NCBI RefSeq assembly: GCF_014274465.1
Contig: NZ_CP060394.1
Span: 124,001 to 188,000, forward strand
Reading direction: 5' to 3'
Length of the DNA stretch: 64,000 nucleotides
Source: Alloacidobacterium dinghuense
Lineage (GTDB): Bacteria > Acidobacteriota > Terriglobia > Terriglobales > Acidobacteriaceae
Shown here: piece by piece, positions 49,366 through 64,000 of the stretch
Layout: each line of letters begins with the position of its first letter
How positions within the stretch are numbered: the first letter of the stretch is position 1
Notes under the pieces: model-generated
Told to the model about the DNA's origin: nothing
The model's database searches: none
Seen by the model: only the letters and a program-made list of their open reading frames with translations
Translations under genes and position numbers: made by a program

Positions 49366-49776
49366 ATGATTAGTAGCGATGCAAATGGACATGATCCTGT
49401 TGAGCTCGGGGAACTAGAGCTGAGCGTGATGCAGCTGATCTGGCAGCATGCGGCAGAAAATGGCGCGATCAGCGCGGAGCAGGTACGTAAGGATCTAGGA
49501 CGTCCACTGAAGGACTCGACGATTCGCACCGTCCTGCGGCGTCTCGAAGAAAAGGGCTACCTGACACACACCGTTGAGGGCCGCACGTATTTCTATCGTC
49601 CGGCTGAGGCGAGGCAGAGGGTGGCTGGTCGTGCTGTAAAGCGCATCATCGACTGGTTCTGCGATGGATCGGTGGAAGCCCTGCTGGTGGGCATGGTCGA
49701 CTCGGAAGTGCTGGATCAGAAGGAATTGACGCGCCTAGCAGAAAGAATTGCGGCGGCAAAGAAAGGAAAACGATGA
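49366..49776 (+). CDS. BlaI/MecI/CopY-family transcriptional repressor
   Basis: 136 residues from ATG 49366. An upstream in-frame start (49297) would run through the apparent operator. The winged helix is ELGELELSVMQLIWQHAAEN, SAEQVRKDLGR, STIRTVLRRLEEKGYLTHTV, GRTYFYRPA, the standard BlaI signature, followed by the dimerisation helices. It overlaps the M56 peptidase gene by 4 bp (ATGA), the classical repressor-sensor pair. In BlaR/BlaI systems the peptidase triggers repressor cleavage. What this pair senses is not known. Confidence 0.9.
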   Translation: MISSDANGHDPVELGELELSVMQLIWQHAAENGAISAEQVRKDLGRPLKDSTIRTVLRRLEEKGYLTHTVEGRTYFYRPAEARQRVAGRAVKRIIDWFCDGSVEALLVGMVDSEVLDQKELTRLAERIAAAKKGKR

Positions 49777-51593
49777 TGATGATGGCGTGGGTGCTCGAAT
49801 CCGCTCTTCGTTCTTTGGCGATGGCAGTGATTGTGTGGTCGGGTATCAAGATGCTGCGTGTGCGCAACGTAGCTGTGCAGAAGACGGCTTGGGTGCTGGT
49901 TCTGTTGGCGGCCGTCGCCATGCCGGGACTTGTAGGTTGGCGCTTGCCGCAATCGCGGGCGGCGGTGGTTGTGCCGGTTCAAAGATTCGTGCCTCGGGCG
50001 GCAAGCGTACATGATCCTGGGCCACCTTCAAGCGCGGCGCTGAGCACAACGACGATCACGGTGAGTACCTCGTCCACAGTGACCCCGGTTAACCGCTGGG
50101 ATCACATCCCGTGGAAGGAATTGATCGTTCCCGCTTATCTTGCCATCTGTGCTGTGCTGCTGTTGCGGCTTTTGTTTGGGTTGGGGATGGCGCTCCGCAT
50201 TCTGCATCGTGCGGAAGAGGCGTCGCCGCTGCTTGAGCCGCGCGCATCGGTTTGCATCAGTGGCGACATACAGACACCAGTGACGATTGGATCCACCATC
50301 GTACTGCCGGAGGCGCACGAGGACTGGAATCTGCATAAGCTGCGTGTTGTGCTCGCGCATGAGCGCTCGCATGTGCGGCAGGGCGATTTTTATCTGCAGC
50401 TGATTGCGGGGCTGCATGTAGTGTTCTTCTGGTTTAGTCCTTTGAGCTGGTGGTTGAAGAAAGAGATATCCGACTTAGGTGAGGCGATTAGCGACCGGGC
50501 TGCTTTGGAAGAGGCGCAGAGCCGCTCCAACTATGCTGAAGTGCTGATCGAGTTTGCCGCCATACGGCGCAGGCCGCTGGCCGGAGTGGCCATGGCGCGA
50601 TCGAGCAACATTCGCAGGCGCATCGACCGCCTGTTGGTTGAGCAGAAATTCCGTGGCGCATTTACTACGTGCAAGTGGCACCTGGCGGCGGCTGCGACAT
50701 TGGTTCCGGTGGCGCTGGTTGCAGCGATTGCGCTTGTGCATGTTGAGGCAGCGGAAGCAATGCAGACACCGGTCGCTGCGCTGCGGCAGGTTGTTCCGGT
50801 TGCGCAGACGATTGCGACGCTGCCCACCCTCGCCGTGCACGCAGCGATTCCGGCAGCCGCAGTGGATCCGGTCACGCCTGTAGAGGCGCAAGCGAAAGCC
50901 GCAACTGATTCGACTCAGATTCAAATCGCAGATGATGACGAAAACTCCTATGCGATTGTGAGCGGCGACTCAGGCAATGTGATGGGCTCATGGCATTCCG
51001 GGAACTCCTTCGATCGGGTTAAGAGCAAAATGCATGGGAATTACATCTGGTTTGAGCGCGATGGCAAATCCTATGTGATCGACGATCCGGCATTGGTTGC
51101 GCAGGCACGAGGATACTTTAAGCCGATCGAGGAACTTGGCCGGCAGCAAGGAGAGTTGGGCGAAGAGCAAGGACGCCTGGGGGAGGAGCAAGGACGGCTC
51201 GGAGAAATGCAAGCCAAAGCGGCGGCTACGCCTCCTGACTTCTCGAAAGAAATGGCTGATCTACAGGCCGCTCTCAAGGATTTGCAGCAACACAAGCTCC
51301 AGGCAGAAGTAAAGGAAGACGATCTTAGCGAGATGCAGGGCAAGCTGGCAGAACTGCAAAGCAAAATTGCAGAGATGCAAGGCAAGTTTGGCGACGCGCA
51401 GGCGAAGATCGGTGAGAAACAGGCAGAATTTGGCGACCAGCAGGCTAAGCTCGGGGAACAGCAGGCGAAGCTGGGGGAGAGACAGGCGGTACTCGGCGCA
51501 CAACAAGCAACGTTTTCCAAGGTGGCTGAGCAGAAGATGAAGTCACTGATTGACAGCGCCATGCAGCAGGGAAAAGCGCGGCCTGTCGAGTAG
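49773..51593 (+). CDS. M56-family (BlaR1-like) membrane metallopeptidase with heptad-repeat C-terminus
   Basis: 606 residues. There are about four TM helices in the first ~310 residues. Zinc site H196-E-R-S-H200 (VLAHERSHVRQGD) and downstream E237 (DLGEAISD) are typical of M56. After the last helix (~residues 300-325), the periplasmic part has no penicillin-binding domain. Instead it contains a small region (YAIVSGDSGNVMGSW, YIWFERDGKSYVIDDPA) and two blocks of heptads of the form LGEEQGR/LGEQQAK (~450-475 and ~525-590) that predict a long coiled coil. It is coupled to the upstream BlaI gene and followed by a terminator. Likely a membrane sensor protease; its ligand is unknown. Confidence 0.88.
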   Translation: MMMMAWVLESALRSLAMAVIVWSGIKMLRVRNVAVQKTAWVLVLLAAVAMPGLVGWRLPQSRAAVVVPVQRFVPRAASVHDPGPPSSAALSTTTITVSTSSTVTPVNRWDHIPWKELIVPAYLAICAVLLLRLLFGLGMALRILHRAEEASPLLEPRASVCISGDIQTPVTIGSTIVLPEAHEDWNLHKLRVVLAHERSHVRQGDFYLQLIAGLHVVFFWFSPLSWWLKKEISDLGEAISDRAALEEAQSRSNYAEVLIEFAAIRRRPLAGVAMARSSNIRRRIDRLLVEQKFRGAFTTCKWHLAAAATLVPVALVAAIALVHVEAAEAMQTPVAALRQVVPVAQTIATLPTLAVHAAIPAAAVDPVTPVEAQAKAATDSTQIQIADDDENSYAIVSGDSGNVMGSWHSGNSFDRVKSKMHGNYIWFERDGKSYVIDDPALVAQARGYFKPIEELGRQQGELGEEQGRLGEEQGRLGEMQAKAAATPPDFSKEMADLQAALKDLQQHKLQAEVKEDDLSEMQGKLAELQSKIAEMQGKFGDAQAKIGEKQAEFGDQQAKLGEQQAKLGERQAVLGAQQATFSKVAEQKMKSLIDSAMQQGKARPVE

Positions 51594-52262: not shown

Positions 52263-53789
52263 TTATTGGCTCGTAGCCGGCGACGATGCGGGTATTTCTT
52301 CGAGCTGGTATCGCTTCTTCTGCGTACCTTCCGTTTGTGCGGCAGTTCGCAGATCGGTCAATTGCTTGAGCAAAGCCGGGACCTGATCTTTCTCATCGGT
52401 TTTGCGGAGCGCGAGAATCAGGTGATAGATCGCCTGCTGATCTTTCGGATCGATGGCGAGAGCTGCGCGAGACTCTCTTACGGCGAACTGAGTCTGGCCG
52501 TTCTGCAGATAAAGCGTCGCTAGAAGGTCATGGGCGGTGACCATATGGGGATCTAGCTTGGCGGCACGCTCGGCCGCTGTTACTGCCTCTTTATATTCGG
52601 GAGTGCCTTCTGTTTGGCCCTGCTGCGAAAGTGCTTCCGCCAGGAGGTATTGCGTGAGTGCGTCGTCGGGATGAGCTTTGGCAGCGGCGCGGAAAGTGCT
52701 CAGAGCCTCGCTCGATTTATGTTCCTGTGATTCGACCAGGCCTTCTGCCACGCCGGTAAAGGAAAGGTTGGGATCGAGACGATTGGCGGTTTCGAAATCG
52801 GAAGCTGCGTTGCTGAATTGGCCGAGCTGGGCGTGGAGTACCCCGCGCGCAACGTAGAGGCGAGCTTCCTTCGGCAATTGCGTGAGGCCGGCGTTGAGGA
52901 TGTCGATGCCCACTTGCATCGATGCGTGGTCGAAGGAGATGGAAGCGAAATTGAGGTAAGCGTCAACGTTTTTCGTGTTGGCGAGAATTGCCTTCCTCAG
53001 CAGTTGAACCGCGTGCGATGTGTCATTGGTGGATTCATCGATGTTCGCGGCCAGGAGCAGTGCATTCTCTTCGGGCGGGGAAGAATCAAGTGCTGGCTGC
53101 AGCGTTGCCAGCGCATCTGAGGCGCGGTTCGCTTTCCACTGTGCAATCGCAAGATTCAAACGGATGCGTTGACTGTCGGGCTGCAAATTGAGCGCCTGCT
53201 GAAATACCGGAATCGACTCGTCATATCGACTCAGCATGGCGAGGCAGGCAGCATAGGCTCCGAGACCGTTGGGTTGATTTGCCAGGGCCTGTGAACCTCT
53301 TTCGAAATCGGAAACGGCATCGGTGCAATTCTTCTCGCGGTATTCAAGAAAACCGAGCATGGCGTGCGATGTGGGGTCGGTCGGCCGTTGAGCCAGAATC
53401 TGAAGAGCGAACGCTTTTGCTTTGGGGCTTCCCGCCTGGAATTCGATTTGCGCGGCGCCTTCGAGAGCCGGCAAGTAGGAAGAGTCTAATGTGAGTGCGT
53501 GCTCGAATGCTTTGAGTGCCGATGCTGGCTCGTTTTTGCCGGAGTAGGCCATGCCTTGGAGTGTCCAGAGGCGCTTGTCTTCGGGAGCCTGTTTGAGTGC
53601 GGAGTCGGATAGAGTTAATGCTTCATCGAACTGATGGTTCTGTAAGGCATGGACAATCGGGCCGACTGGCGATGTTTGTGAAATCGCGTGCGCGATGGGT
53701 AGCAATGAACAAATTAGCAGGAGGAGGGTTCGAGAGGCTTTGATGATGCTGCTCTGCCGCACCTTAATTTTGGATTCCCGGCTGACCAC
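52263..53789 (-). CDS. Exported tetratricopeptide-repeat protein
   Basis: 508 residues with a signal peptide (TLLLLICSLLPIAHAISQ) followed by roughly ten to twelve TPR units covering most of the protein (ALQNHQFDEALTLSDSALKQ, MLSRYDESIPVFQQALNL, QLGQFSNAASDFETANRLDP). The last ~25 residues are low complexity. It lies on the same strand as, and 167 bp downstream of, the TonB receptor at 53957-57406, with a long hairpin between them. Exported TPR proteins frequently accompany such receptors in Acidobacteria. A scaffold role in the periplasm is inference. Its 3' end abuts a truncated pseudogene. Confidence 0.82.
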   Translation of the reverse strand: MVSRESKIKVRQSSIIKASRTLLLLICSLLPIAHAISQTSPVGPIVHALQNHQFDEALTLSDSALKQAPEDKRLWTLQGMAYSGKNEPASALKAFEHALTLDSSYLPALEGAAQIEFQAGSPKAKAFALQILAQRPTDPTSHAMLGFLEYREKNCTDAVSDFERGSQALANQPNGLGAYAACLAMLSRYDESIPVFQQALNLQPDSQRIRLNLAIAQWKANRASDALATLQPALDSSPPEENALLLAANIDESTNDTSHAVQLLRKAILANTKNVDAYLNFASISFDHASMQVGIDILNAGLTQLPKEARLYVARGVLHAQLGQFSNAASDFETANRLDPNLSFTGVAEGLVESQEHKSSEALSTFRAAAKAHPDDALTQYLLAEALSQQGQTEGTPEYKEAVTAAERAAKLDPHMVTAHDLLATLYLQNGQTQFAVRESRAALAIDPKDQQAIYHLILALRKTDEKDQVPALLKQLTDLRTAAQTEGTQKKRYQLEEIPASSPATSQ

Positions 53790-53956: not shown

Positions 53957-56900
53957 CTAAAAGTTGATTCGGGCTCCTAAAAGCATGTTGCGTGGCGGGA
54001 GAGTGGATGAGGTTTGTCCAAAATTCCCGTCCTGCAGATTTGTGTCCACACCGTTGAGATTGACTCGATTGAACAGGTTGAATGTATCGAAGCGAAGTTC
54101 AAGGTTCACGTTTTCCCAGATCGTTGTCACTTTCTTGACGGTAAGGTCTGTGTCGGCGTAACCGGGATTGCGGAATTGATAGGGCGTCTGATTTCCTTCC
54201 TGTCCTAGTTGCGGCAGAGTGAACTGACCGCATGGGAGTATGCCGCCGGGGCAGGTTGGGAAGATGCCATTTCCGACTTGATAGTCTTTTCTACTGTGTT
54301 TCTGCTTGTAGCTGGTCACATTTGGATAGTCGTTATTGTTTCCGTCGGCATTGAAGTCGCCGCTGCCGGGTGCAAATTGCAGATTCCCTGCAGCCATCTC
54401 AGCTGCGTAGTTCTGCGATGTGAGTGGCGATCCATCGGCTGCGGTTGTGCTGATGGCGAGCGGTGCACCAGTGGTGACCGTAAACGGATAGCCGGATTGT
54501 AAGATGGTCGTACCGGCCAAAGTCCAACCTCCGAGAATATGCCGTGCAACTACGTTTGAGAGGTGTTCTCCAGGTAGGAGATAACTCACGCCAAGCGAGA
54601 ATCGGTTGGGTACGTCCCAGGGGGATGGTGCGTAGAAGTGATAGAAGGGGTAAGCGATGGGATAGTTTTCCCAGTTGTCCATCGCTTTTCCGTGAGTATA
54701 AGAGGCTGTCAGGAAGCCTCGGTGAGCGAAGCGTCCCTTTGCCGCAAGGATGAGTCCCTGATAATTGGCGATCGCTCCATTGAATGCATAGTTGATTCCA
54801 CCAAAGCTGGTGTTCAGGCGGGTTTGAGTGCCGGAGCCTGTGTAGGCGCCGGATGAATCGAAGTTTGGGTGTTGCAGCAAGTCGCCAGAATAGGCGTTCA
54901 CATCATTTCCGTACGATGTTGCTCCGGTGTTGCCGCCGCCCGTCACGAGATTGCCCGAGTGCGATCCGACATAGCCGATGCTGGCGACCATATCGCGCGT
55001 GATTTCATGCTCGACGGTCAACGACCAGTTCATAGTGAATGGTGAAGACAGGTTTGGATCGACAGCGCCTACACCAATCTGCGAGCCGACGATGCCTCCT
55101 TTGGCATCAAGTGGTTTGCCTTGAAAGGCCGGATAGGGGAAGCCGAAGGGGTACTTGTTTTGTGTTCCGTAACCGAAGACAGGTGGCGCGGTCGAACCGT
55201 TGTTGAAGAATGTCGGCACAATTGGTCCGGGAGGATTGGAACCGAGTCCGTTTTCTGCGTTCCCGAGTGTGAAGTAATCGTGATAGAGACCGATGCCGCC
55301 GCGGACCACCCACTCGGCGTTACCAAACGGGTCGTAGGCAAAGCCGCCACGGGGAGCGAAGTTCCAGTTCAGGTCGTGATTGAAGACGTGATTTTGCTGT
55401 GTCATGACAGCGTTCGCGACTTGATCGGTGAAGGTGGATGCGCTGGCGAGGTGTAAATTCGCCAGCACTGTTCCCTTCAAGGCGACATAAGGATTTCCAA
55501 AGTTGTCGTAGCGAATGCCGAAGTTCAGCGTTAGCTTGCGCGTGGTCTTCCAAGTGTCCTCGATGAAGGCGCCGCCTGTCGTTTCCTGATAGCCGTAGTT
55601 TCGATCGGCAGGCTTCCCGGTTACAGGGTTATAGGCGAGACCTGTTTCGCTGTAGGGATTATTGTTGATCAGGTCGATCATGTTGGTGTACTGGATCGTG
55701 GGCTGACCGTAGGCTCCTGCGAAGTAGGCTAGATCGTCACCGTGCCATCCCTCGTAGCCGACTTTGATGGTGTGAGAGCCCAGGATGTGAGTCAGCACGT
55801 CGCGCCAGTGGTAGCTGTGCTGGATGTAGTCACCGAGCGCGAAACCATCGCCGAAGTTCACGCCTAAGCCAGTGACATTTACGACTGGCACGGTGAATAG
55901 CCCGGATGATGGCGCGAAGCCTTCGATACGGTTGTAGCCGCCAAACGCTTCATTCAGAGTGTAGGGAGAGAACGTGTGCGTCTCGTTCCCCTGCAGCGAG
56001 AACGTGTAGTAGTTGTTCGTGGTGTTGAAGGCAGGACGAACGGAAGGGCCGCCGGTGCTGATGGTATCGCGATAGAAGAGGCCATAGACGCGATCCTTGG
56101 TGAAGTACTTATCGATGCGGATGTTGTATTGCTTTGAGTTGTTATAGCTGGACGAGTTGAAATTGCCCTGATCAAAGACAGCCGTGCCGCAGGGGATATT
56201 GTCGGTGCTCGATGTCTCGCAGCCGGTGTTTGCCGTCAGGTTTTGTGGGCCGAAGGCCTGCTCCGCTGTCTGAAAGACATTTCGGAACGTTGCGTTCGAC
56301 GGAGGATATTTTGCGAGCAGTTGTACCTCTGGGCTGTTTGGCTGCACTGTCTGGGCAAAACTCACGAATGCGGGATCTTCGTACGTTTGCAATGACGATC
56401 CGTTCGAAGTGAGCGAGAGATATGGCTCATAGCTGACGAAGAAAAAGAATTTGTGATGCGGAATCACAGGGCCGCCTACTCCGAAGGACATGTTGTTGGT
56501 GTGATAGGGGGCAAGTTTTTCTGGTTGCGGCACACCAAACTCTCCTCTGGCCTGCAATCCCTGATAGGTGTAGTACTCACTGGCAAAGCCATGGAACTGG
56601 TCATTGCCGGAACGCGTGCTCATGACTGTCTGGAGCGAACTTGCACGACCATAGTCGACGTTGTAGGTATTTGTCTGAACCGTGGTCTCGGCGAGTGAAT
56701 CGACGTTCGGTGTCAAATTCACAATGCCGGGACGAATGCTGCTGGTTACGTCAAGACCGTCGACGATGTACATGTTACCGTTTTGTCCGCGCCCATTCGC
56801 ACTCGCGTCGATAAAGTTTTCCGGGTTGAAGTTGGTGGCGGTTCCGGCGCCGAGGCCTGTTACTCCGGGCGTGAGAGTCAGTAGCGCGGTTGGATTGCGC

Positions 56901-57406
56901 GCAGCCAACGGGAGATTCTCGAGAGCGGTTTGATCGAGAGTCTGCTGATTGCGGCTGTCGCCGGTATCGAGCAGCGGCGCCTGCGTGGTTACGGTGACGC
57001 TGGTGCTGACCTGGCCGACTGCGAGAGTAAGAGAAACATTTCGTGTCTCGGCAGCGTTCAGGACGATTTGTGTGCTCGCCGAAGCGAAGCCCTGCGCCGA
57101 GACCGAGACGGTGTAGTTTCCGGGACCAAGGCTGGCGAAGCGAAAGACGCCGCTAGCGTCGCTGGTTGTTGTCTGGCTGATTTGATTATCGACGTTGGTG
57201 AGGGTGACGGTTGCGTTTGGAACCGATGCTCCGCTGGTATCCTGCAGGCTGCCTTGCACGCCTGCAGTGAACTGTGCCATCGCTACCGATGTTGTTGCGA
57301 TGAGGAACAGCGCGAACGCTCTCAGCCCTTCTCGGATTAGCTTGTGGATGATCAACGCGTGCTGTTGGAGGATGTAGCCGCTGCATTCAGTCTCTTGTTT
57401 ACTCAT
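53957..57406 (-). CDS. Oar-type TonB-dependent outer-membrane receptor
   Basis: 1149 residues from ATG 57406 with GAGG 6 bases upstream. The signal peptide ends near FLIATTSVAMAQ. The N-terminal carboxypeptidase-regulatory-like sandwich (VQGSLQDTSGASVPNATVTL) is followed by the plug (LENLPLAARNPTALLTLTPG, YIVDGLDVTSS) and a long barrel ending PPRNMLLGARINF. It is divergent from the binding-protein/kinase/regulator unit across 266 bp of inverted-repeat-rich DNA, and is therefore probably the transporter regulated by it. The substrate may be the sugar seen by the binding lipoprotein; this is inference. Confidence 0.92.
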   Translation of the reverse strand: MSKQETECSGYILQQHALIIHKLIREGLRAFALFLIATTSVAMAQFTAGVQGSLQDTSGASVPNATVTLTNVDNQISQTTTSDASGVFRFASLGPGNYTVSVSAQGFASASTQIVLNAAETRNVSLTLAVGQVSTSVTVTTQAPLLDTGDSRNQQTLDQTALENLPLAARNPTALLTLTPGVTGLGAGTATNFNPENFIDASANGRGQNGNMYIVDGLDVTSSIRPGIVNLTPNVDSLAETTVQTNTYNVDYGRASSLQTVMSTRSGNDQFHGFASEYYTYQGLQARGEFGVPQPEKLAPYHTNNMSFGVGGPVIPHHKFFFFVSYEPYLSLTSNGSSLQTYEDPAFVSFAQTVQPNSPEVQLLAKYPPSNATFRNVFQTAEQAFGPQNLTANTGCETSSTDNIPCGTAVFDQGNFNSSSYNNSKQYNIRIDKYFTKDRVYGLFYRDTISTGGPSVRPAFNTTNNYYTFSLQGNETHTFSPYTLNEAFGGYNRIEGFAPSSGLFTVPVVNVTGLGVNFGDGFALGDYIQHSYHWRDVLTHILGSHTIKVGYEGWHGDDLAYFAGAYGQPTIQYTNMIDLINNNPYSETGLAYNPVTGKPADRNYGYQETTGGAFIEDTWKTTRKLTLNFGIRYDNFGNPYVALKGTVLANLHLASASTFTDQVANAVMTQQNHVFNHDLNWNFAPRGGFAYDPFGNAEWVVRGGIGLYHDYFTLGNAENGLGSNPPGPIVPTFFNNGSTAPPVFGYGTQNKYPFGFPYPAFQGKPLDAKGGIVGSQIGVGAVDPNLSSPFTMNWSLTVEHEITRDMVASIGYVGSHSGNLVTGGGNTGATSYGNDVNAYSGDLLQHPNFDSSGAYTGSGTQTRLNTSFGGINYAFNGAIANYQGLILAAKGRFAHRGFLTASYTHGKAMDNWENYPIAYPFYHFYAPSPWDVPNRFSLGVSYLLPGEHLSNVVARHILGGWTLAGTTILQSGYPFTVTTGAPLAISTTAADGSPLTSQNYAAEMAAGNLQFAPGSGDFNADGNNNDYPNVTSYKQKHSRKDYQVGNGIFPTCPGGILPCGQFTLPQLGQEGNQTPYQFRNPGYADTDLTVKKVTTIWENVNLELRFDTFNLFNRVNLNGVDTNLQDGNFGQTSSTLPPRNMLLGARINF

Positions 57407-57429
57407 GTTGACCTCGAAGTGGTAAAACG

Positions 57430-57512
57430 CACGGTGCCCGAACCGTGTCCTTGAAGCGGCTCATTGTGTGTTAGCTTCAAGGTTGTAATCGGTTTCAAGC
57501 CTCAGTGAAACC
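57430..57512. promoter_or_regulatory. Cluster of three inverted repeats in a divergent promoter region
   Basis: CACGGT-N6-ACCGTG (57430-57447), CCTTGAAGC-N16-GCTTCAAGG (57449-57482) and GGTTTCA-N8-TGAAACC (57491-57512) follow each other within 83 bp, all perfect. They start 23 bp upstream of the TonB receptor and lie 160-240 bp before the binding-protein gene. They are good candidate operators for the NarL-type regulator encoded at 60826-61467. Confidence 0.5.
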
Positions 57513-57672
57513 TGGCTTTGCGTCCGCTGGAGAGACTACTGATCGAGGTGAAGGACACGCATGAGTCAGGTGGGTAAGCATCACGTAGTCCATATGGGCT
57601 ATGCGGGCTATGGGCCAATTGTCAGTCTTGCTGATTGGTTTAGCCTGCAGATAGACTCCAGCCAATTGCTTC

Positions 57673-58695
57673 ATGCGAATCGCGAACAATAGAGATGGTT
57701 GCGCACAAATAGGACCGGTTGAACGCAGCCGCATTAGCGCTATTCTTCTCGCGCTGATTCTGCTTTCCGGTTGTGGGAAGTCTGCCGCGCCGAGGATCGC
57801 TGTGATTCCGCGGACGACTGGAACGATGATGTGGGAGCCGGAGCACGGCGGGGCATTGGCGGCAGCTCTTTCTTCCGGCACTCACGTTTACTGGAATGCT
57901 CCGACTCGTGAAGATGATATTCACGGCCAGATCGCAATAGTGGATCGGGTGGCTGAAGGAGGCTACCAAGGATTAATTCTTGCTCCCGATCATGCGCTAG
58001 CACTTGTCACGCCTGTTCGTCGCGCCATTTCACGCGGCTTGCGCACGGTAATCATCGGATCGCCGCTTGCAATCCCGCCGGGCGGACGATTGTGGTACGT
58101 CCTGAATGACGAGGATGCAGGCGGGCGTATCGCGGCTCAGCGAGTGGCCTCAATACTGCATGGCGAGGGATCGATCGCAATTGTTGGCATAGATCCTGAT
58201 ATCAGTGGAATCATGGATCGCGCGCGTAGCATGGAACAGTATCTAGCCGAACACTACCCACGGATCCGTATCGTCGCGAACAAAATTGGCTCCTTCAATG
58301 TGCCACACGAACAACAAGTAGCTGAGGAGACACTCAAGGACAATCCGGATTTGGATGCAGTCATCTCACTCAATGCAACGTCAACGCGTGGAGTACTTTC
58401 GACGATCCGGAGCAATCCGTCGATTCGCACGCGCGTCATTGCATTCGATCCTGACTCTCCGGCTTTCGATAGCCCGAATCTGGATTCCTTGATTTTGCAG
58501 GATACGAGAAAGATGGGCGCCGAGGCTGTGCGTACGATCGTTGCGGATCTTCAAGGACAGTCGATGCCAACGACGATGCGCCTGGAACCAGTTTTGGTCA
58601 CGAGAGAAAACGTCAGCAGCGAAGAGGTCCATCAGTTGACCTCGATGGATTGGCGGCCGGCTCCAATGCGATGGAAGTGGAGTGTTCATCCATGA
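57673..58695 (+). CDS. Sugar-binding-type periplasmic lipoprotein (Peripla_BP_4/RbsB fold), sensory
   Basis: 340 residues. The lipoprotein signal ends LLALILLSGC with C34. The mature part is a LacI/RbsB-like binding fold: AIVDRVAEGGYQGLILAPDH, WYVLNDEDAGGRIAAQRVAS, AIVGIDPDISGIMDRARSME, DLDAVISLNATSTRG and VIAFDPDSPAFD all match type I ligand-binding proteins. No ABC permease or ATPase is nearby. Instead its last four bases overlap the ATG of a sensor kinase (ATGA). It therefore probably works as the ligand-binding partner of that kinase, as LuxP does for LuxQ. The ligand is unknown, likely a saccharide. Confidence 0.85.
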   Translation: MRIANNRDGCAQIGPVERSRISAILLALILLSGCGKSAAPRIAVIPRTTGTMMWEPEHGGALAAALSSGTHVYWNAPTREDDIHGQIAIVDRVAEGGYQGLILAPDHALALVTPVRRAISRGLRTVIIGSPLAIPPGGRLWYVLNDEDAGGRIAAQRVASILHGEGSIAIVGIDPDISGIMDRARSMEQYLAEHYPRIRIVANKIGSFNVPHEQQVAEETLKDNPDLDAVISLNATSTRGVLSTIRSNPSIRTRVIAFDPDSPAFDSPNLDSLILQDTRKMGAEAVRTIVADLQGQSMPTTMRLEPVLVTRENVSSEEVHQLTSMDWRPAPMRWKWSVHP

Positions 58696-60872
58696 GGCGG
58701 CGCGTCGTTATCCCTGTTGCCCTCACGACACTGTTCATTGTGGGAGGGCTTTGCCTTTTTGCTTATTGGAGAAGCCCAAGCCGCGGACTTCCTTATCGCG
58801 ACTCTTTCGGAGCAGCCAAAGCGGAGGAATGGACTGCATTGGGTGGAACCTGGGAGGTTGTGGGTGGCGCGATGCGCAACGACTCTGATGAGCGCGGAGC
58901 GAAGCTTCTCACCGGTTCAACTCACTGGCAAAATTACTCGATTGAGGCAGATGTCATGCTGCTGGGTCTTGGCGGCGATGCGGGGCTTCTCGTGCGATCG
59001 AGCCATGAAGAAGAAGGCGTAGACGCTTATGACGGCTATTACGCCGGCCTGCGCACGATTGATAACTCCCTTACACTCGGACGGGCTGGTTACGGCTGGA
59101 TGGAAGCTAATTTTCCGCTGAAGCCTCGAGGGATTCCTGTGCAGGCTTCGCGGTGGTATCACATGAAGCTTCTCGCTTACGGCTGCCAGCTGGTGGCATC
59201 GGCATCGCTCTTGCCGCATGGGAATCCCACGGTCGCCTCCATTACTGACGAAGACTGTATCCAGTCAGGTCGCGGAGGCCTGCGCTCATATTCATCTGGC
59301 GGGGTGTGGCGGAATGTTGTCGTTCGCGCTGCCACACAGCGTGACGTCGACGAGATGCTCACCCAGGGTCGATCCGAGGAGAATTCTTCGAGCCAGTATT
59401 CAATCAATGACCTGCTTTCACGTGGCGTGACACTAGCGCCGCCGCTGGACAATCAACCGAGTGCGCTGCCTTCCAGTCCGAACACGCAATCGATCAGCAG
59501 TTTGCGCATGGTATCCCTGGCGAAGGAAACACAGGCGACGGTACGAGGGATCGTCATACTCAACTCACCTGCGCTCTTTGTTCAGGACTCGACGGGCGGC
59601 GTAGCTGTGCAGCCTATCAAGTCGCAGGCGTTGAAGGTTGGCGATGAGGTTGAAGTCAGTGGCCAGGTGAAGACAAATGCATTCAGCTCGATGCTGGAAA
59701 ACGCCACAGTTCGTGTTTTGTGGGAAGCCACGCCGATGCCTGCAGTCTCGGTCACCGCGTCACAAGCGGCAACCGGAGCCTTTGATGCGACCTTCATCGA
59801 GGTTTCTGGGCTACTGCGCGACAAAAGGTATGGACCGGGTGACGAGCTGATCTTTGACTTTGACTCAGGATCGCAATCATTTCGCGCGATCATGAACCGT
59901 GGCCGCGGGAACTATCTGTACGGAAAGTTGAAACTGGGTAGCCTGCTGCGTCTGCGCGGTGTGTCGGTCGTTGACCCTGCCTACACGCAATTCGTTACTC
60001 CGTTCGCTGTGCTTGTGCGCTCAAGCGATGATGTAGAAGTTCTCGCTGGGCCTCCATGGTGGAGCGCCGGACACCTGGTTGCGGCGGCAATCGGACTACT
60101 GCTGCTTGCACTCATCATCAACTTTGTCTATCACCGCATTGAAAGCATGCGGTTGCGCGCGGTGGTCGAGGAGCGCGAACATCTGGCTTATGAAATGCAT
60201 GACACGCTGGCTCAGAGTGTCGCCGGGATCGGCTTTCAGCTTGAAGCGATCCGCATCGGCACGCCGGAAGAGCTGTCGAATGTGCATCGGCAACTCGATC
60301 TTGCGAGTGAGCTGGTGCGGCACAGTCACGCTGAAGCGCGGAGAAGTATCAATATGCTTCGTCCTCAGCAACTCGAATCGGAAGGTCTGCTTAACGCGCT
60401 GACTCGTTGTGCGCAACGCCTCGTCGAAGGGGGAGCTGTGCAAGTTGTTGTCGGAGCAACAGGAGATGTGCGGCCACTGCCGCTGCGCACTGCTGACACT
60501 CTTTATCGCATCGGACAGGAGGCAATCGCGAATGCGGTACGACATGCGCATCCGAGCAGAATTGCGATCAACATCAAGTACGAGAAAAACGCCGTTCATC
60601 TGCTCGTCAGCGATGATGGCTCGGGTTTCAGAGCGGGTGAGGATATGCAGGGGTTCGGGGTTCTTGGCATGCGCAAGCGCGCAGCCAGCATTGCGGCACG
60701 ATTTGAGGTTTGCAGCAGCACGGCTCATGGCACTGAAGTGCGTGTAGCCGCACCCCTTGCGCCGCGCGTCACATTCGTTTCATGGCCAATATTCGTGTGG
60801 AATTTCCTAAAGGAGCGCGCTCGCAATGTCGCAGCCAGCAACAAGTCCAATCCGCATCCTTATAGTCGATGA
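58692..60872 (+). CDS. Sensor histidine kinase with LamG/DUF1080-like and OB-like extracytoplasmic domains
   Basis: 726 residues from ATG 58692 (overlaps the binding-protein stop). A TM/signal anchor (VVIPVALTTLFIVGGLCLFA) leads to a concanavalin-like beta-sandwich (~35-215: EEWTALGGTWEVVGGAM, YSIEADVMLLGLGGDAGLLV, WRNVVVRAA). An OB-like domain follows (~275-440: TVRGIVILNSPALFVQDSTG, KVGDEVEVSGQV). A second TM is ~460-480. The cytoplasmic part has HisKA_3 with H503 in AYEMHDTLAQSVAG and HATPase (IANAVRHA, SDDGSGF, FGVLGMRKRA). The sugar-sandwich domain suggests direct carbohydrate sensing in addition to the bound lipoprotein. The response regulator gene begins inside its 3' end. Confidence 0.87.
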   Translation: MRRRVVIPVALTTLFIVGGLCLFAYWRSPSRGLPYRDSFGAAKAEEWTALGGTWEVVGGAMRNDSDERGAKLLTGSTHWQNYSIEADVMLLGLGGDAGLLVRSSHEEEGVDAYDGYYAGLRTIDNSLTLGRAGYGWMEANFPLKPRGIPVQASRWYHMKLLAYGCQLVASASLLPHGNPTVASITDEDCIQSGRGGLRSYSSGGVWRNVVVRAATQRDVDEMLTQGRSEENSSSQYSINDLLSRGVTLAPPLDNQPSALPSSPNTQSISSLRMVSLAKETQATVRGIVILNSPALFVQDSTGGVAVQPIKSQALKVGDEVEVSGQVKTNAFSSMLENATVRVLWEATPMPAVSVTASQAATGAFDATFIEVSGLLRDKRYGPGDELIFDFDSGSQSFRAIMNRGRGNYLYGKLKLGSLLRLRGVSVVDPAYTQFVTPFAVLVRSSDDVEVLAGPPWWSAGHLVAAAIGLLLLALIINFVYHRIESMRLRAVVEEREHLAYEMHDTLAQSVAGIGFQLEAIRIGTPEELSNVHRQLDLASELVRHSHAEARRSINMLRPQQLESEGLLNALTRCAQRLVEGGAVQVVVGATGDVRPLPLRTADTLYRIGQEAIANAVRHAHPSRIAINIKYEKNAVHLLVSDDGSGFRAGEDMQGFGVLGMRKRAASIAARFEVCSSTAHGTEVRVAAPLAPRVTFVSWPIFVWNFLKERARNVAASNKSNPHPYSR

Positions 60873-61467
60873 CCATCCTGTTGTGCGCGCGGGCCTGACC
60901 AGTATGCTCGGCACGCAGGCGGATCTGGAGGTGGTCGCTTCTGCCTCAAGCGGTGAAGCGGCGCTTGCCATGATCGGCAAGACCGAATCGGACATCGTGC
61001 TTCTCGATCTGCGAATGCCAGGTCTGAGCGGAGTCGAAACGATTCTTAAAATGAAGAAGGCTGGCTCTGCGGCTCGCATCATCATTCTCACCAGCTTCGA
61101 AACGGATGAAGACATCTACCGCGCTGTGCAGGCGGGCGCTCAAGGGTATCTTCTGAAAGATACTTCTTTGAAAGAAATGATCGAGGCGATCAAGACTGTC
61201 CACTCGGGCAAGCGGTATATTCCCCGCGATATTGCAGCGCGGCTTGCGGAACGCATGATGCGCGCGAATCTTACATCGCGCGAACTTGAGATCTTAAAGA
61301 TGCTTTCGAAGGGCCTGACCAATAAACAGATCGGTCACGCGCTTGGCATCAGCGACAATACGGCAAAAAATCACGTCAACAGCATTATCGAAAAACTCGA
61401 AGTATCTGACCGCACCGAAGCAGCGACCACAGCGATTCAGCGCGGGCTCATTACGATGGAAGACTAG
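60826..61467 (+). CDS. NarL/FixJ-family response regulator
   Basis: 213 residues. ATG 60826 lies 47 bp inside the kinase gene with AAAGGAG upstream, so the pair is translationally coupled. The receiver has DD at 15-16, phospho-Asp D61 in IVLLDLRMPG, and K in YLLKDTS. The LuxR-type helix-turn-helix is TSRELEILKMLSKGLTNKQI, followed by ALGISDNTAKNHVNSIIEKL. It is the output of the binding-protein/kinase relay. Probable targets are the divergent TonB receptor and the downstream exported enzyme gene. Confidence 0.93.
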   Translation: MSQPATSPIRILIVDDHPVVRAGLTSMLGTQADLEVVASASSGEAALAMIGKTESDIVLLDLRMPGLSGVETILKMKKAGSAARIIILTSFETDEDIYRAVQAGAQGYLLKDTSLKEMIEAIKTVHSGKRYIPRDIAARLAERMMRANLTSRELEILKMLSKGLTNKQIGHALGISDNTAKNHVNSIIEKLEVSDRTEAATTAIQRGLITMED

Positions 61468-61591
61468 GATGATCGCCGCGGGAATGGTCCAGATGGACTA
61501 TAGACCGGAAGGGTGGAACAAATAAGACTGTTCCGAGCGATGTGTGTAGTGCAGTACCGTCGTCCGATCTTACAAGGAGAGAATTTCCCAG

Positions 61592-64000
61592 TTGATTCAA
61601 CGTCGTGATTTTCTCAAGCTTCTCGCCTCAATCGGGGCAGGTTCTGCGGTTCACTCTGGTTTCGGCTTCGCGCTTGAAACCTCGCCGGGACTTCGCAAAG
61701 GGGAGTATTCACCCGGGAGAATTCCCAATGAGTTTTCTCTTTTCCTGCCCGGTGAAGAAGATGCCCTTCGATCCGTTCCAACAGTAAGCGGAATCCAGCG
61801 CGGAGAACTGACAGCCAAGGCTGGAACGCGATCGGCTGCTATTCGCCCAGGAGAAATGTTCGATGGCTGGCAGCTCATCACGATCAGCGACATAAACGGC
61901 GTGACTACTGCAGTATTTGAAAAGCACGTTACGCATCGTGGAGCGATCGCGTATGTGACCGAGCAGGAAGGCATGATTGCATGGATTCCCAAGTTTGTTG
62001 GCAGCCTCGCAAAGATTCGACCACGGCCAACAAATACACCTCATGGCGTAAAGCTGGAGAGGGCCGCGCGCTACGTCCCAGGCCCAGATGTTACCGGGCT
62101 CTATCTGCTGAACTCATCCGAAGATCCCTGTTATGAGAATGTCGCGGCTCTGGGTGCTGAGTATATTGGCTGGACGCTCGTAGCGAATGAACAGGGAGGG
62201 CCGAAGGTCTGTTTGTATCTGGAGCCTGATGGCAAATCGCGGGAGATAGCAGGCAAGCCGGATGGAGATGGATCATGGGAACAGGATCAATTGGGAGCGT
62301 ATTTCGACCCGGCTGAATTGCTTTCGGATGAAAACCCGAAGGTTTACGAATATACCCCGGGCTATAGCAAGCGCGCATTGCTCGGTGGCTATCTTCCCGT
62401 GGCCGATATCGGCGTGTGGAATCCTCAGTATCAATGCGGCTATGAAACCATGCTTCTGTTGCCACCGGGCACCGACGCGAAGCCCCTCGGGCGTGTTCGT
62501 GTGATGATTCCGGAGGATCGGGCTGGTGCGTATTCGAGCATGCATGCTATTGCGAAGGATGCAGACGGCAGATCCTATGTAGATCGGTATTGGAACTGTT
62601 CACCCGAGTCTTTTTACGCCGAGCTTGCGGGGATATGGAATCGTTGGTCGTCGCTCTATGAAACGGCGATGCAGGTCAGGATTCCCGATGAGTGGTTGTT
62701 GAATGCTGCGCGCGCGAGCATCACGCTATCGCGGTGCAGCTATCGAGGACTTGAACCCACCTATCAGATCGGCGAGGGAGCTTACACGAAGATTCCCGAG
62801 CGTAGTCATGCGCTCTTCCCTGTGGCCGAATATGAGTTCATCTGGGCGCAGCAAATCTGGAATCTTACCGATGATGCTGATGCTTATTATCAGTACTACC
62901 TCGAAAAATACGTGTTGCCGAACGGGGATTTTGTGTACAACACGCAGGACCAGGTAGAAGCGCCGCTGAATGTCGGAGTTTTTCTCGCAAATTCGGCGCG
63001 TTCTTACGACTACAGCAGGAATCTCGATGCCTTGCAAAAGCGGCTGCCGATTCTCGATCGCATGATCGCTTTCGTCCTTAGGCGTTACGAGTACAGCAAA
63101 GAGATATTTTCTCCGGGCGACCGGCGCTATGGGCTGATCTACGGATCGCCGGAGGCGGATTTGGGTGATCCGAATAATGATTTTCCCAAGTCGCATCCGC
63201 TCTACTATCAGAATTCGGCCTGGATCTGGCGGGGGCTGAACGAGCATGCGCGCTGCCTCGCTCTTGCCGCGCAGGCCGGTCATGATGAAAGTCTCATCGG
63301 AGCCGCGACGCGATATGCGGGGATTGCGACGGAGATGCGGGCGAACATTCAGGCGTCGCTCGAAGCAACGCTTTCGCTCCGCACGCCGGAGATGAAGGCC
63401 GCGGGCATTTCTCCGTTCACACCGGACGATATTCATCGCCGTCCGACTGAATTAGCCAGCTACGAAAACCACCGCTTTATGCAGGATTGGTTCCTTGCCG
63501 ACTGGGGAGATCCAGCACTCGACCTCGGCCATCTGAAGCATCGTGAGTTGGCGGGCATGCAGATTCTTGGGCTCCACACGGACGGAGCCGAGGCGCGTAC
63601 GTCGAACTTTATGGACCATGGCAGCCTTGCAGTGAAGATCCGACAGGAAGACTATCGTCCATTTTTGCTGAATCTCTACGCGCTGGTTTGTTACGCTGCC
63701 GACTCTGGGAATCGCTATGCGCCCGAGGACGCCTTGATTCCCGGAAGCTTTGCAGGTGAGGGGAATCGGTATGGCTGGGCCTCCGTCATCAACAGCACGC
63801 TTCAGCCCTCGGTTGGCCTTCGCTGGCTGCTCTGTTATGAAGAATCGGATAAGGATGTGTGCCATCTGCAGAAGGCCGCGCCCAAACACTGGTTTGCAGC
63901 TGGAGAGACGATCGCGGTTGCGAAGTGCCCTACACGCTTTGGTCCGGTGAGCTGGTCGACGCGAGCCATATCCGACCGTCAGTGGAAGGTTATGCTCGAC
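61592..64000 (+). CDS. Tat-exported putative six-hairpin-type glycoside hydrolase (partial at right edge)
   Basis: An 803-codon frame stays open from TTG 61592 to the window end, which is why it has no visible stop. AAGGAGA sits 11 bases before the TTG. The N-terminus is a twin-arginine signal (IQRRDFLKLLASIGAGSAVH). The first ~370 residues look like beta-sandwich (PKVCLYLEPDGKSREIAG, RVRVMIPEDRAGAYSSMHAI). The second part is helical and aromatic-rich (WLLNAARASITLSRCSYRGL, YYQYYLEKYVLPNGDFVYNT, HPLYYQNSAWIWRGLNEHAR), resembling the (alpha/alpha)6 toroid of six-hairpin glycosidases. No GH family can be named with confidence. It follows the two-component genes on the same strand with a 124-bp gap and is a probable target of them. 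Confidence 0.7.
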   Translation, partial: MIQRRDFLKLLASIGAGSAVHSGFGFALETSPGLRKGEYSPGRIPNEFSLFLPGEEDALRSVPTVSGIQRGELTAKAGTRSAAIRPGEMFDGWQLITISDINGVTTAVFEKHVTHRGAIAYVTEQEGMIAWIPKFVGSLAKIRPRPTNTPHGVKLERAARYVPGPDVTGLYLLNSSEDPCYENVAALGAEYIGWTLVANEQGGPKVCLYLEPDGKSREIAGKPDGDGSWEQDQLGAYFDPAELLSDENPKVYEYTPGYSKRALLGGYLPVADIGVWNPQYQCGYETMLLLPPGTDAKPLGRVRVMIPEDRAGAYSSMHAIAKDADGRSYVDRYWNCSPESFYAELAGIWNRWSSLYETAMQVRIPDEWLLNAARASITLSRCSYRGLEPTYQIGEGAYTKIPERSHALFPVAEYEFIWAQQIWNLTDDADAYYQYYLEKYVLPNGDFVYNTQDQVEAPLNVGVFLANSARSYDYSRNLDALQKRLPILDRMIAFVLRRYEYSKEIFSPGDRRYGLIYGSPEADLGDPNNDFPKSHPLYYQNSAWIWRGLNEHARCLALAAQAGHDESLIGAATRYAGIATEMRANIQASLEATLSLRTPEMKAAGISPFTPDDIHRRPTELASYENHRFMQDWFLADWGDPALDLGHLKHRELAGMQILGLHTDGAEARTSNFMDHGSLAVKIRQEDYRPFLLNLYALVCYAADSGNRYAPEDALIPGSFAGEGNRYGWASVINSTLQPSVGLRWLLCYEESDKDVCHLQKAAPKHWFAAGETIAVAKCPTRFGPVSWSTRAISDRQWKVMLD

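Follow-up and report, generated by a model that had tools for sequence, protein, structure and literature searches.

A probable three-component sugar sensor at a TonB-type locus of the Acidobacteriaceae

In the genome of Alloacidobacterium dinghuense, three adjacent genes for a sugar-binding lipoprotein, a sensor histidine kinase and a response regulator probably constitute, to judge from sequence comparisons, a three-component sugar sensor controlling the small glycan-use locus to which it belongs, including a receptor and a probable enzyme. Acidobacteria degrade polysaccharides in soil, where they are abundant. The source is a single-contig genome of 6.27 Mb, and the window discussed here, i.e. 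the whole stretch of 64,000 nucleotides that was analysed, corresponds to its positions 124001–188000.

Organization of the locus

The trio of SBP, kinase and regulator spans window positions 57673–61467 on the plus strand, with the following features in and around it:

52263–53789, minus strand: TPR protein (Pfam TPR families), downstream of the TonB receptor
53957–57406, minus strand: TonB-dependent-type outer-membrane receptor (OMP_b-brl_4, PF25183, 4.1e-108; CarboxypepD_reg, PF13620, 4.5e-21)
57586–57601: candidate site 1 for the regulator (inverted repeat TAGTCCA-TA-TGGGCTA), within the divergent TonB/SBP promoter
57673–58695, plus strand: type I periplasmic sugar-binding lipoprotein, SBP (PF13407, 1.2e-31; lipobox LLSGC)
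58692–60872, plus strand: sensor histidine kinase (TM, CBM66-like sandwich, tandem OB, TM, HisKA_3/HATPase)
58782–59336, plus strand: CBM66-like/PF06439 beta-sandwich of the kinase (residues 31–215)
59529–60047, plus strand: tandem OB-like, membrane-proximal region of the kinase (residues 280–452)
60171–60761, plus strand: kinase core, HisKA_3 and HATPase_c by Pfam (residues 494–690)
60826–61467, plus strand: NarL/LuxR-type response regulator (Response_reg, 8e-29; GerE, 2.4e-18)
61485–61500: candidate site 2 for the regulator (inverted repeat TGGTCCA-GA-TGGACTA), 5' of the hydrolase-like gene
61592–64000, plus strand: Tat-type orphan secreted protein, hydrolase-like (TTG start; continues to genome position 188159; 855 aa)

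The stop codon of the SBP gene and the ATG of the kinase share the ATGA at 58692–58695, and the kinase and regulator genes overlap by 47 bp (60826–60872). A preliminary description of this DNA had claimed both of these couplings, as well as a type I sugar-binding lipoprotein, a kinase whose ectodomain is a concanavalin-like sandwich plus an OB-like part, a NarL-type regulator and, on the opposite strand, a TonB receptor and a TPR protein; all of this is borne out by the matches listed above and by the kinase model described below. Elsewhere in the window (49773–51593, plus strand) is a gene for a BlaR1-type M56 peptidase whose long, repetitive tail is rich in glutamine.

The sensor kinase and its outer domain

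The Pfam matches of the kinase comprise HisKA_3 (7.5e-12), HATPase_c (1.1e-8) and PF06439 (7.7e-7), and in an alignment of 46 kinases the catalytic residues (H503, D504, N614, D641, G643 and G656) are invariant. Its structural model (pLDDT 83.7) begins with a TM helix (residues 2–26) and a beta-sandwich (~31–215), followed by two five-stranded barrels (~280–345 and ~367–452), a second TM segment and the kinase core. PF06439 is present in 32/32 members of the kinase family and an OB match (PF01336) in 15/32; the OB region also gives a weak match to YgiW (E 0.0067).

The Foldseek list for the model was taken up by the kinase core, and it was in VIA-align that the outer domain surfaced, with matches that covered the sandwich and not the OB part. 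The sandwich aligns with the CBM66 structure 4azz at a Z of 21.1 (2.1 Å over 158 residues), and a galactocerebrosidase domain (3zr5) reaches an equal Z of 21.1. In Bacillus subtilis levanase, CBM66 (4azz, 4b1l) has the same fold as the outer domain of the kinase, at an identity of ~20%; the difference is that here the domain is built into a kinase.

Conservation of the SBP–kinase–regulator trio

The query used in the search for relatives was the kinase ectodomain only, and thus the co-occurrence of the SBP came from a kinase-based search. Matches were found in 144 of the 397 genomes of the order, many of them partial (LamG or OB only), and among 396 genomes of the phylum full-length matches are confined to the family of the window's organism, the OB part alone being matched elsewhere. 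From the 242 loci found we kept 80, all acidobacterial save for one MAG labelled Binataceae. The contig in question (L228, labelled Candidatus Binataceae) carries an Acidobacteriaceae kinase and is probably mis-binned.

The 161 loci (the window's own, plus 80 and 80) were reduced to distinct kinases, of which 91 are fused, 13 are split (with a separate LamG gene beside an OB-kinase) and 11 are LamG-kinases without OB. Duplicates sharing the same 120 kinase-core residues were dropped, as were frames with no kinase-core match or with neither LamG nor OB. These criteria took out L100, L108 and L109, which have LamG and kinase in separate frames and no OB or SBP. They also took out the kinase of L151, which is broken, although its LamG-OB half is accompanied by an SBP. 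With its two systems, L133 appears among both the fused and the split kinases. In L151 (genome G053) the kinase and TonB genes are each broken into two frames, so that this is perhaps a decaying copy. In three of the split systems (L096, L097 and L098) the LamG gene is opposite in strand to the OB-kinase that it presumably serves.

The SBP gene adjoins all 91 distinct fused kinases and 12 of the 13 split ones (the contig of the thirteenth ends 676 bp away), but none of the 11 OB-less LamG-kinases. A regulator lies within 2.5 kb in 85/91 fused, 12/13 split and 11/11 OB-less cases, two of the six fused loci that have none ending within 75 bp. For a TonB-type receptor within 6 kb, the corresponding counts are 81/91 (it is missing in 10), 12/13 and 9/11. 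On this comparative evidence the trio is a conserved unit of the Acidobacteriaceae and, because it is conserved in 91/91 fused loci, the pairing of the SBP with the kinase is more than chance. The preliminary description had proposed such a neighbourhood survey, with five genes expected to co-occur: the lipoprotein and the kinase do indeed stay together, but the TPR family occurs in only 23/55 related loci and the hydrolase-like family in 9/55, and the full set is not invariant.

The OB-less LamG-kinases form one clade (support 92), and hence the contrast that links OB to the SBP represents a single evolutionary event, not many. In this sister clade (L110, L111, L138–L145 and L229) the regulator is on the opposite strand, a TonB receptor is usually near and there is no SBP. 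The OB region as a universal docking part for SBPs was considered and rejected: the OB-less kinases form just one clade, and around the OB regions of other acidobacterial proteins, in 17 loci with flanks of ~1.5 kb, there was no SBP match.

Among the related systems, that of genome G162 is closest (74% over residues 4–454 and 77% over the ectodomain). Two genomes of the same genus have matches, G073 with only a 44% relative and G349 with a split and weaker system; this patchy distribution suggests loss or transfer.

The sugar-binding lipoprotein and the absence of a PF02653 permease

The family profile of the SBP matches solved sugar-binding proteins, 4wut best and after it several more, among them 5xsj, 5xss and 5xsd (~2e-39), which we take to be XylFII, and 2x7x (8.2e-22), presumably the fructose sensor BT1754. 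Across the family, the assignment as a lipoprotein is based on the alignment column of the lipobox cysteine, a residue shared by at least 90% of the 53 homologues in the alignment, and not on the strict lipobox pattern, which is found in 66/103 SBPs with frame starts that are the longest possible. A few SBPs (e.g. L208 and L217) seem to be without this cysteine. The binding pocket was compared at what we assume to be the ten ribose-contact positions of E. coli RbsB: R141, F164, N190, D215 and Q235 are identical in the SBP, F16 is replaced by a Trp (W in 48/53 homologues), and F15, N64, D89 and R90 are lost. A sugar pocket, though one unlike a ribose pocket, is plausible from these residues.

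A search of the 6.27-Mb genome for a PF02653-type (CUT2) sugar ABC permease found none (the control matched in 12/14 reference genomes), in agreement with the earlier claim that this lipoprotein has no ABC transporter; a cognate ABC permease of this class was rejected on this result. An alternative is that the SBP serves an ABC sugar importer whose other genes lie elsewhere, its place beside the kinase being accidental. This would suit its closest solved relatives by profile, which are ABC binding proteins, and a PF02653 permease is present in 12 of the 40 carrier genomes. However, this class is absent from 28/40 carriers as well as from the window's own genome, and with the coupling of the SBP and kinase genes and their 91/91 co-occurrence the importer explanation is very improbable. 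With no PF02653 permease for the SBP to feed, we propose instead that it reports to the kinase.

There are three other strong Peripla_BP_4 proteins in the genome, two of which have LacI or IclR DNA-binding domains; as for the third, neither of its two scanned neighbours is a transporter. The fusion of an IclR-type DNA-binding domain to Peripla_BP_4 (L115:9494–10588, plus strand; genome ~704993–706087) is an unusual hybrid regulator.

Co-divergence of the SBP with its partners

Over 79 loci, the distances of the SBP correlate with those of the kinase ectodomain (r 0.835), the kinase core (0.775), the regulator (0.723) and the TonB receptor (0.578). The partial correlation (also 79 loci) between SBP and ectodomain, given the core, is 0.546, compared with 0.272 between SBP and core, given the ectodomain. 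Such co-divergence fits a contact between SBP and ectodomain, bearing in mind that operon co-inheritance alone also raises distance correlations.

It is possible, if somewhat doubtful, that glycans are sensed mainly by the CBM66-like domain, the response of which the SBP only modulates (two-input sensing). Although it lacks an SBP, the OB-less clade keeps this domain along with a regulator in 11/11 cases and a TonB receptor in most (9/11), the inverted repeat considered below is present in 5/11 of its loci, and the sandwich matches CBM66 at a Z of 21.1. Nevertheless, the SBP is present in all 91 fused systems and its divergence tracks that of the ectodomain closely.

An inverted repeat as candidate operator

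A new element of this analysis, adding a regulatory link beyond the preliminary description, is the repeat TAGTYCA-N2-TGRACTA. It emerged when words and dyads were counted in 40 promoters lying between divergent TonB and SBP genes, a six-sequence promoter alignment serving only to view it in place. Candidate site 1 lies 71 nt 5' of the SBP start and 179 nt 5' of the TonB start; site 2, which was outside the motif discovery set, is 91 nt 5' of the hydrolase-like gene. With at most one mismatch, these (57586–57601 and 61485–61500) are the only two sites in the window's own genome; at up to two mismatches there are 41 sites, versus 72 for a control pattern. Shuffles of the window contained no site.

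The 91 fused loci (1.69 Mb) have 16 exact and 22 one-mismatch sites, as against 0 and 1 in one shuffle set. When the fifth base is left free and up to one mismatch allowed, a site is found in 48/91 fused, 2/13 split and 5/11 OB-less loci, in the last of these between the regulator and TonB genes. Nearly all of the site records (64/67, one L133 site being counted twice) fall within promoter windows, where 9.3 would be expected; these windows extend from 320 bp upstream to 150 bp downstream of the starts of SBP, TonB, regulator, kinase, LamG, GH127 and hydrolase-like genes. Five sites precede hydrolase-like genes and seven precede GH127 genes. Ten other carrier genomes have from 0 to 5 sites with at most one mismatch (none in G036 and G008), and in G026, G085 and G155 there are exactly two each, all inside their own locus. 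A backwards control yields 1 to 6 chance sites per genome in the ten, so that lone matches elsewhere mean little.

The presence of the repeat at both promoters suggests that the locus may behave as one self-controlled feeding switch. The earlier picture of a self-contained sense-import-degrade module gains from this common element, but the gene set varies between loci, and import and degradation are read from the gene families. As inverted repeats suit several regulator families, the site could belong to a regulator of a different type, such as LacI or IclR, instead of to the NarL-type one. This seems unlikely: the repeat accompanies the kinase–regulator family, OB-less loci included, and the sites with at most one mismatch in the window's own genome are confined to this locus. 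That the neighbouring genes are unrelated, clustered in the ordinary way and without any function in common, is extremely unlikely, given the SBP–kinase conservation and the distribution of the candidate operator, even though the TPR and hydrolase-like genes are found in only part of the related loci.

The hydrolase-like protein and neighbouring enzymes

Of the downstream gene it had been claimed that its product is Tat-exported and hydrolase-like. The twin-arginine N-terminus is there, and TAT_signal is matched in 6/10 family members, but no enzyme family was matched, and beyond the Tat signal there is no Pfam, NCBIfam or PDB match. The protein belongs to an orphan family (A3) of ~850 aa, with a mean column identity of 72% over 10 members, that occurs in 12/91 fused loci. 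The weak Foldseek matches of its model (pLDDT 50.7) to GH78, GH127 and GH146 are leads only, as is a local similarity of its C-terminus to the MGH1-like family; past the leader, there is no similarity to GH127. In view of the poor model and the lack of a family match, we rejected an enzyme class drawn from these GH78, GH127, GH146 and MGH1-like leads.

The GH127-type family (PF20736/PF07944) occurs in 29/55 related loci, versus ~0.9 expected in 20-kb loci from a background of 164 genes in 40 genomes (~4.1 per genome), and a stricter single-query scan places it in 26/91 fused loci. The window's own locus has the orphan hydrolase-like family instead. Further recurrent neighbours have matches to GH130/GH43, MGH1-like, arabinofuranosidase and GH35/GH42-type families; from the enzyme families near related loci, one might guess that arabinose-containing glycans are the substrate. 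A second orphan family, of ~970 aa, is found beside the TonB receptor in five loci (L120:15678–18590, L080, L084, L085 and L122), and the member scanned has no Pfam match.

Proposed mechanism

A sugar or small glycan fragment would enter the periplasm via the TonB receptor, and the SBP would bind it there and report to the kinase through the periplasmic CBM66-like/tandem-OB part. The kinase, with its intact domains and its gene coupled to that of the regulator, would then phosphorylate the NarL-type regulator, a dimer of which may bind TAGTYCA-N2-TGRACTA, a site defined by comparison. The predicted targets are two promoters, the divergent one of the TonB gene and the SBP–kinase–regulator trio and that of the hydrolase-like gene. 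The result would presumably be a positive loop, in which the substrate brings about more receptor, sensor and enzyme.

A more elaborate version, which we advance tentatively and do not hold to be probable, is a family-wide type of glycan sensor not described before: a two-input kinase that combines its own lectin-like CBM66 domain with an SBP docked on a tandem-OB adaptor. Each copy would act through its private repeat on no more than the neighbouring receptor and enzyme genes, and the Acidobacteriaceae would have parallel self-contained switches instead of the HTCS of Bacteroidetes.

One regulator family and one operator, with several related systems per genome, would offer a direct handle on acidobacterial glycan loci. 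The putative operator would predict which receptor and enzyme belong together, and it points to the enzyme-like orphan family.

Comparison with known systems

The best reading, by analogy, is that this is a new version of a known type of SBP–kinase sensor, which would work like XylFII-LytS or CuaDSR with different parts; among the matches listed from the open-licence literature, no title dealt with an acidobacterial counterpart. XylFII-LytS, from the work of Li et al. in 2017 (cited in PMC10384115), is reportedly a xylose three-component system of Clostridium. In it a sugar SBP signals to a membrane kinase, as proposed here, and the profile of our SBP finds some of its best matches in 5xsj, 5xss and 5xsd. 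The present system differs in its HisKA_3 kinase, its CBM66-like/tandem-OB ectodomain and its NarL-type regulator; it would, moreover, act on genes for a TonB receptor and a secreted protein instead of those for an ABC importer. With respect to the SusC/SusD type of PUL, where a SusD-type lipoprotein lies beside the TonB receptor, none was found in the window; the neighbours of the receptor are instead the TPR protein and the SBP.

Sets of SBP, sensor and regulator are termed three-component systems in PMC10384115, which describes CuaDSR, a cellobiose system of Ruminiclostridium cellulolyticum in which the SBP binds the sensor and induces sugar-use genes. CuaDSR resembles our trio in that a lipoprotein SBP, a sensor and a regulator are encoded together, whereas it controls the ABC transporter genes cuaABC-cbpA (PMC10384115). 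In Bacteroides, the hybrid two-component systems (HTCS) sit with and control a glycan locus; BT1754, according to PMC3243724, is an SBP-fold sensor in such a hybrid PUL regulator, and in its fold it is like the SBP here. In BT1754, however, a single chain carries the SBP fold, the kinase and the regulator (PMC3243724), while here the three are encoded by separate genes. Most sensors of the HTCS type are built with Reg_prop (PMC3243724), for which the kinase here has no Pfam match at E 0.01. The earlier view of an acidobacterial counterpart of Bacteroidetes PUL sensors, built from different parts, is supported; here there are three genes, no Reg_prop, and an SBP combined with a HisKA_3 kinase and a NarL-type regulator. 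If our reading is correct, signalling from an SBP to a kinase, as in XylFII-LytS and CuaDSR, would extend to TonB-type loci.
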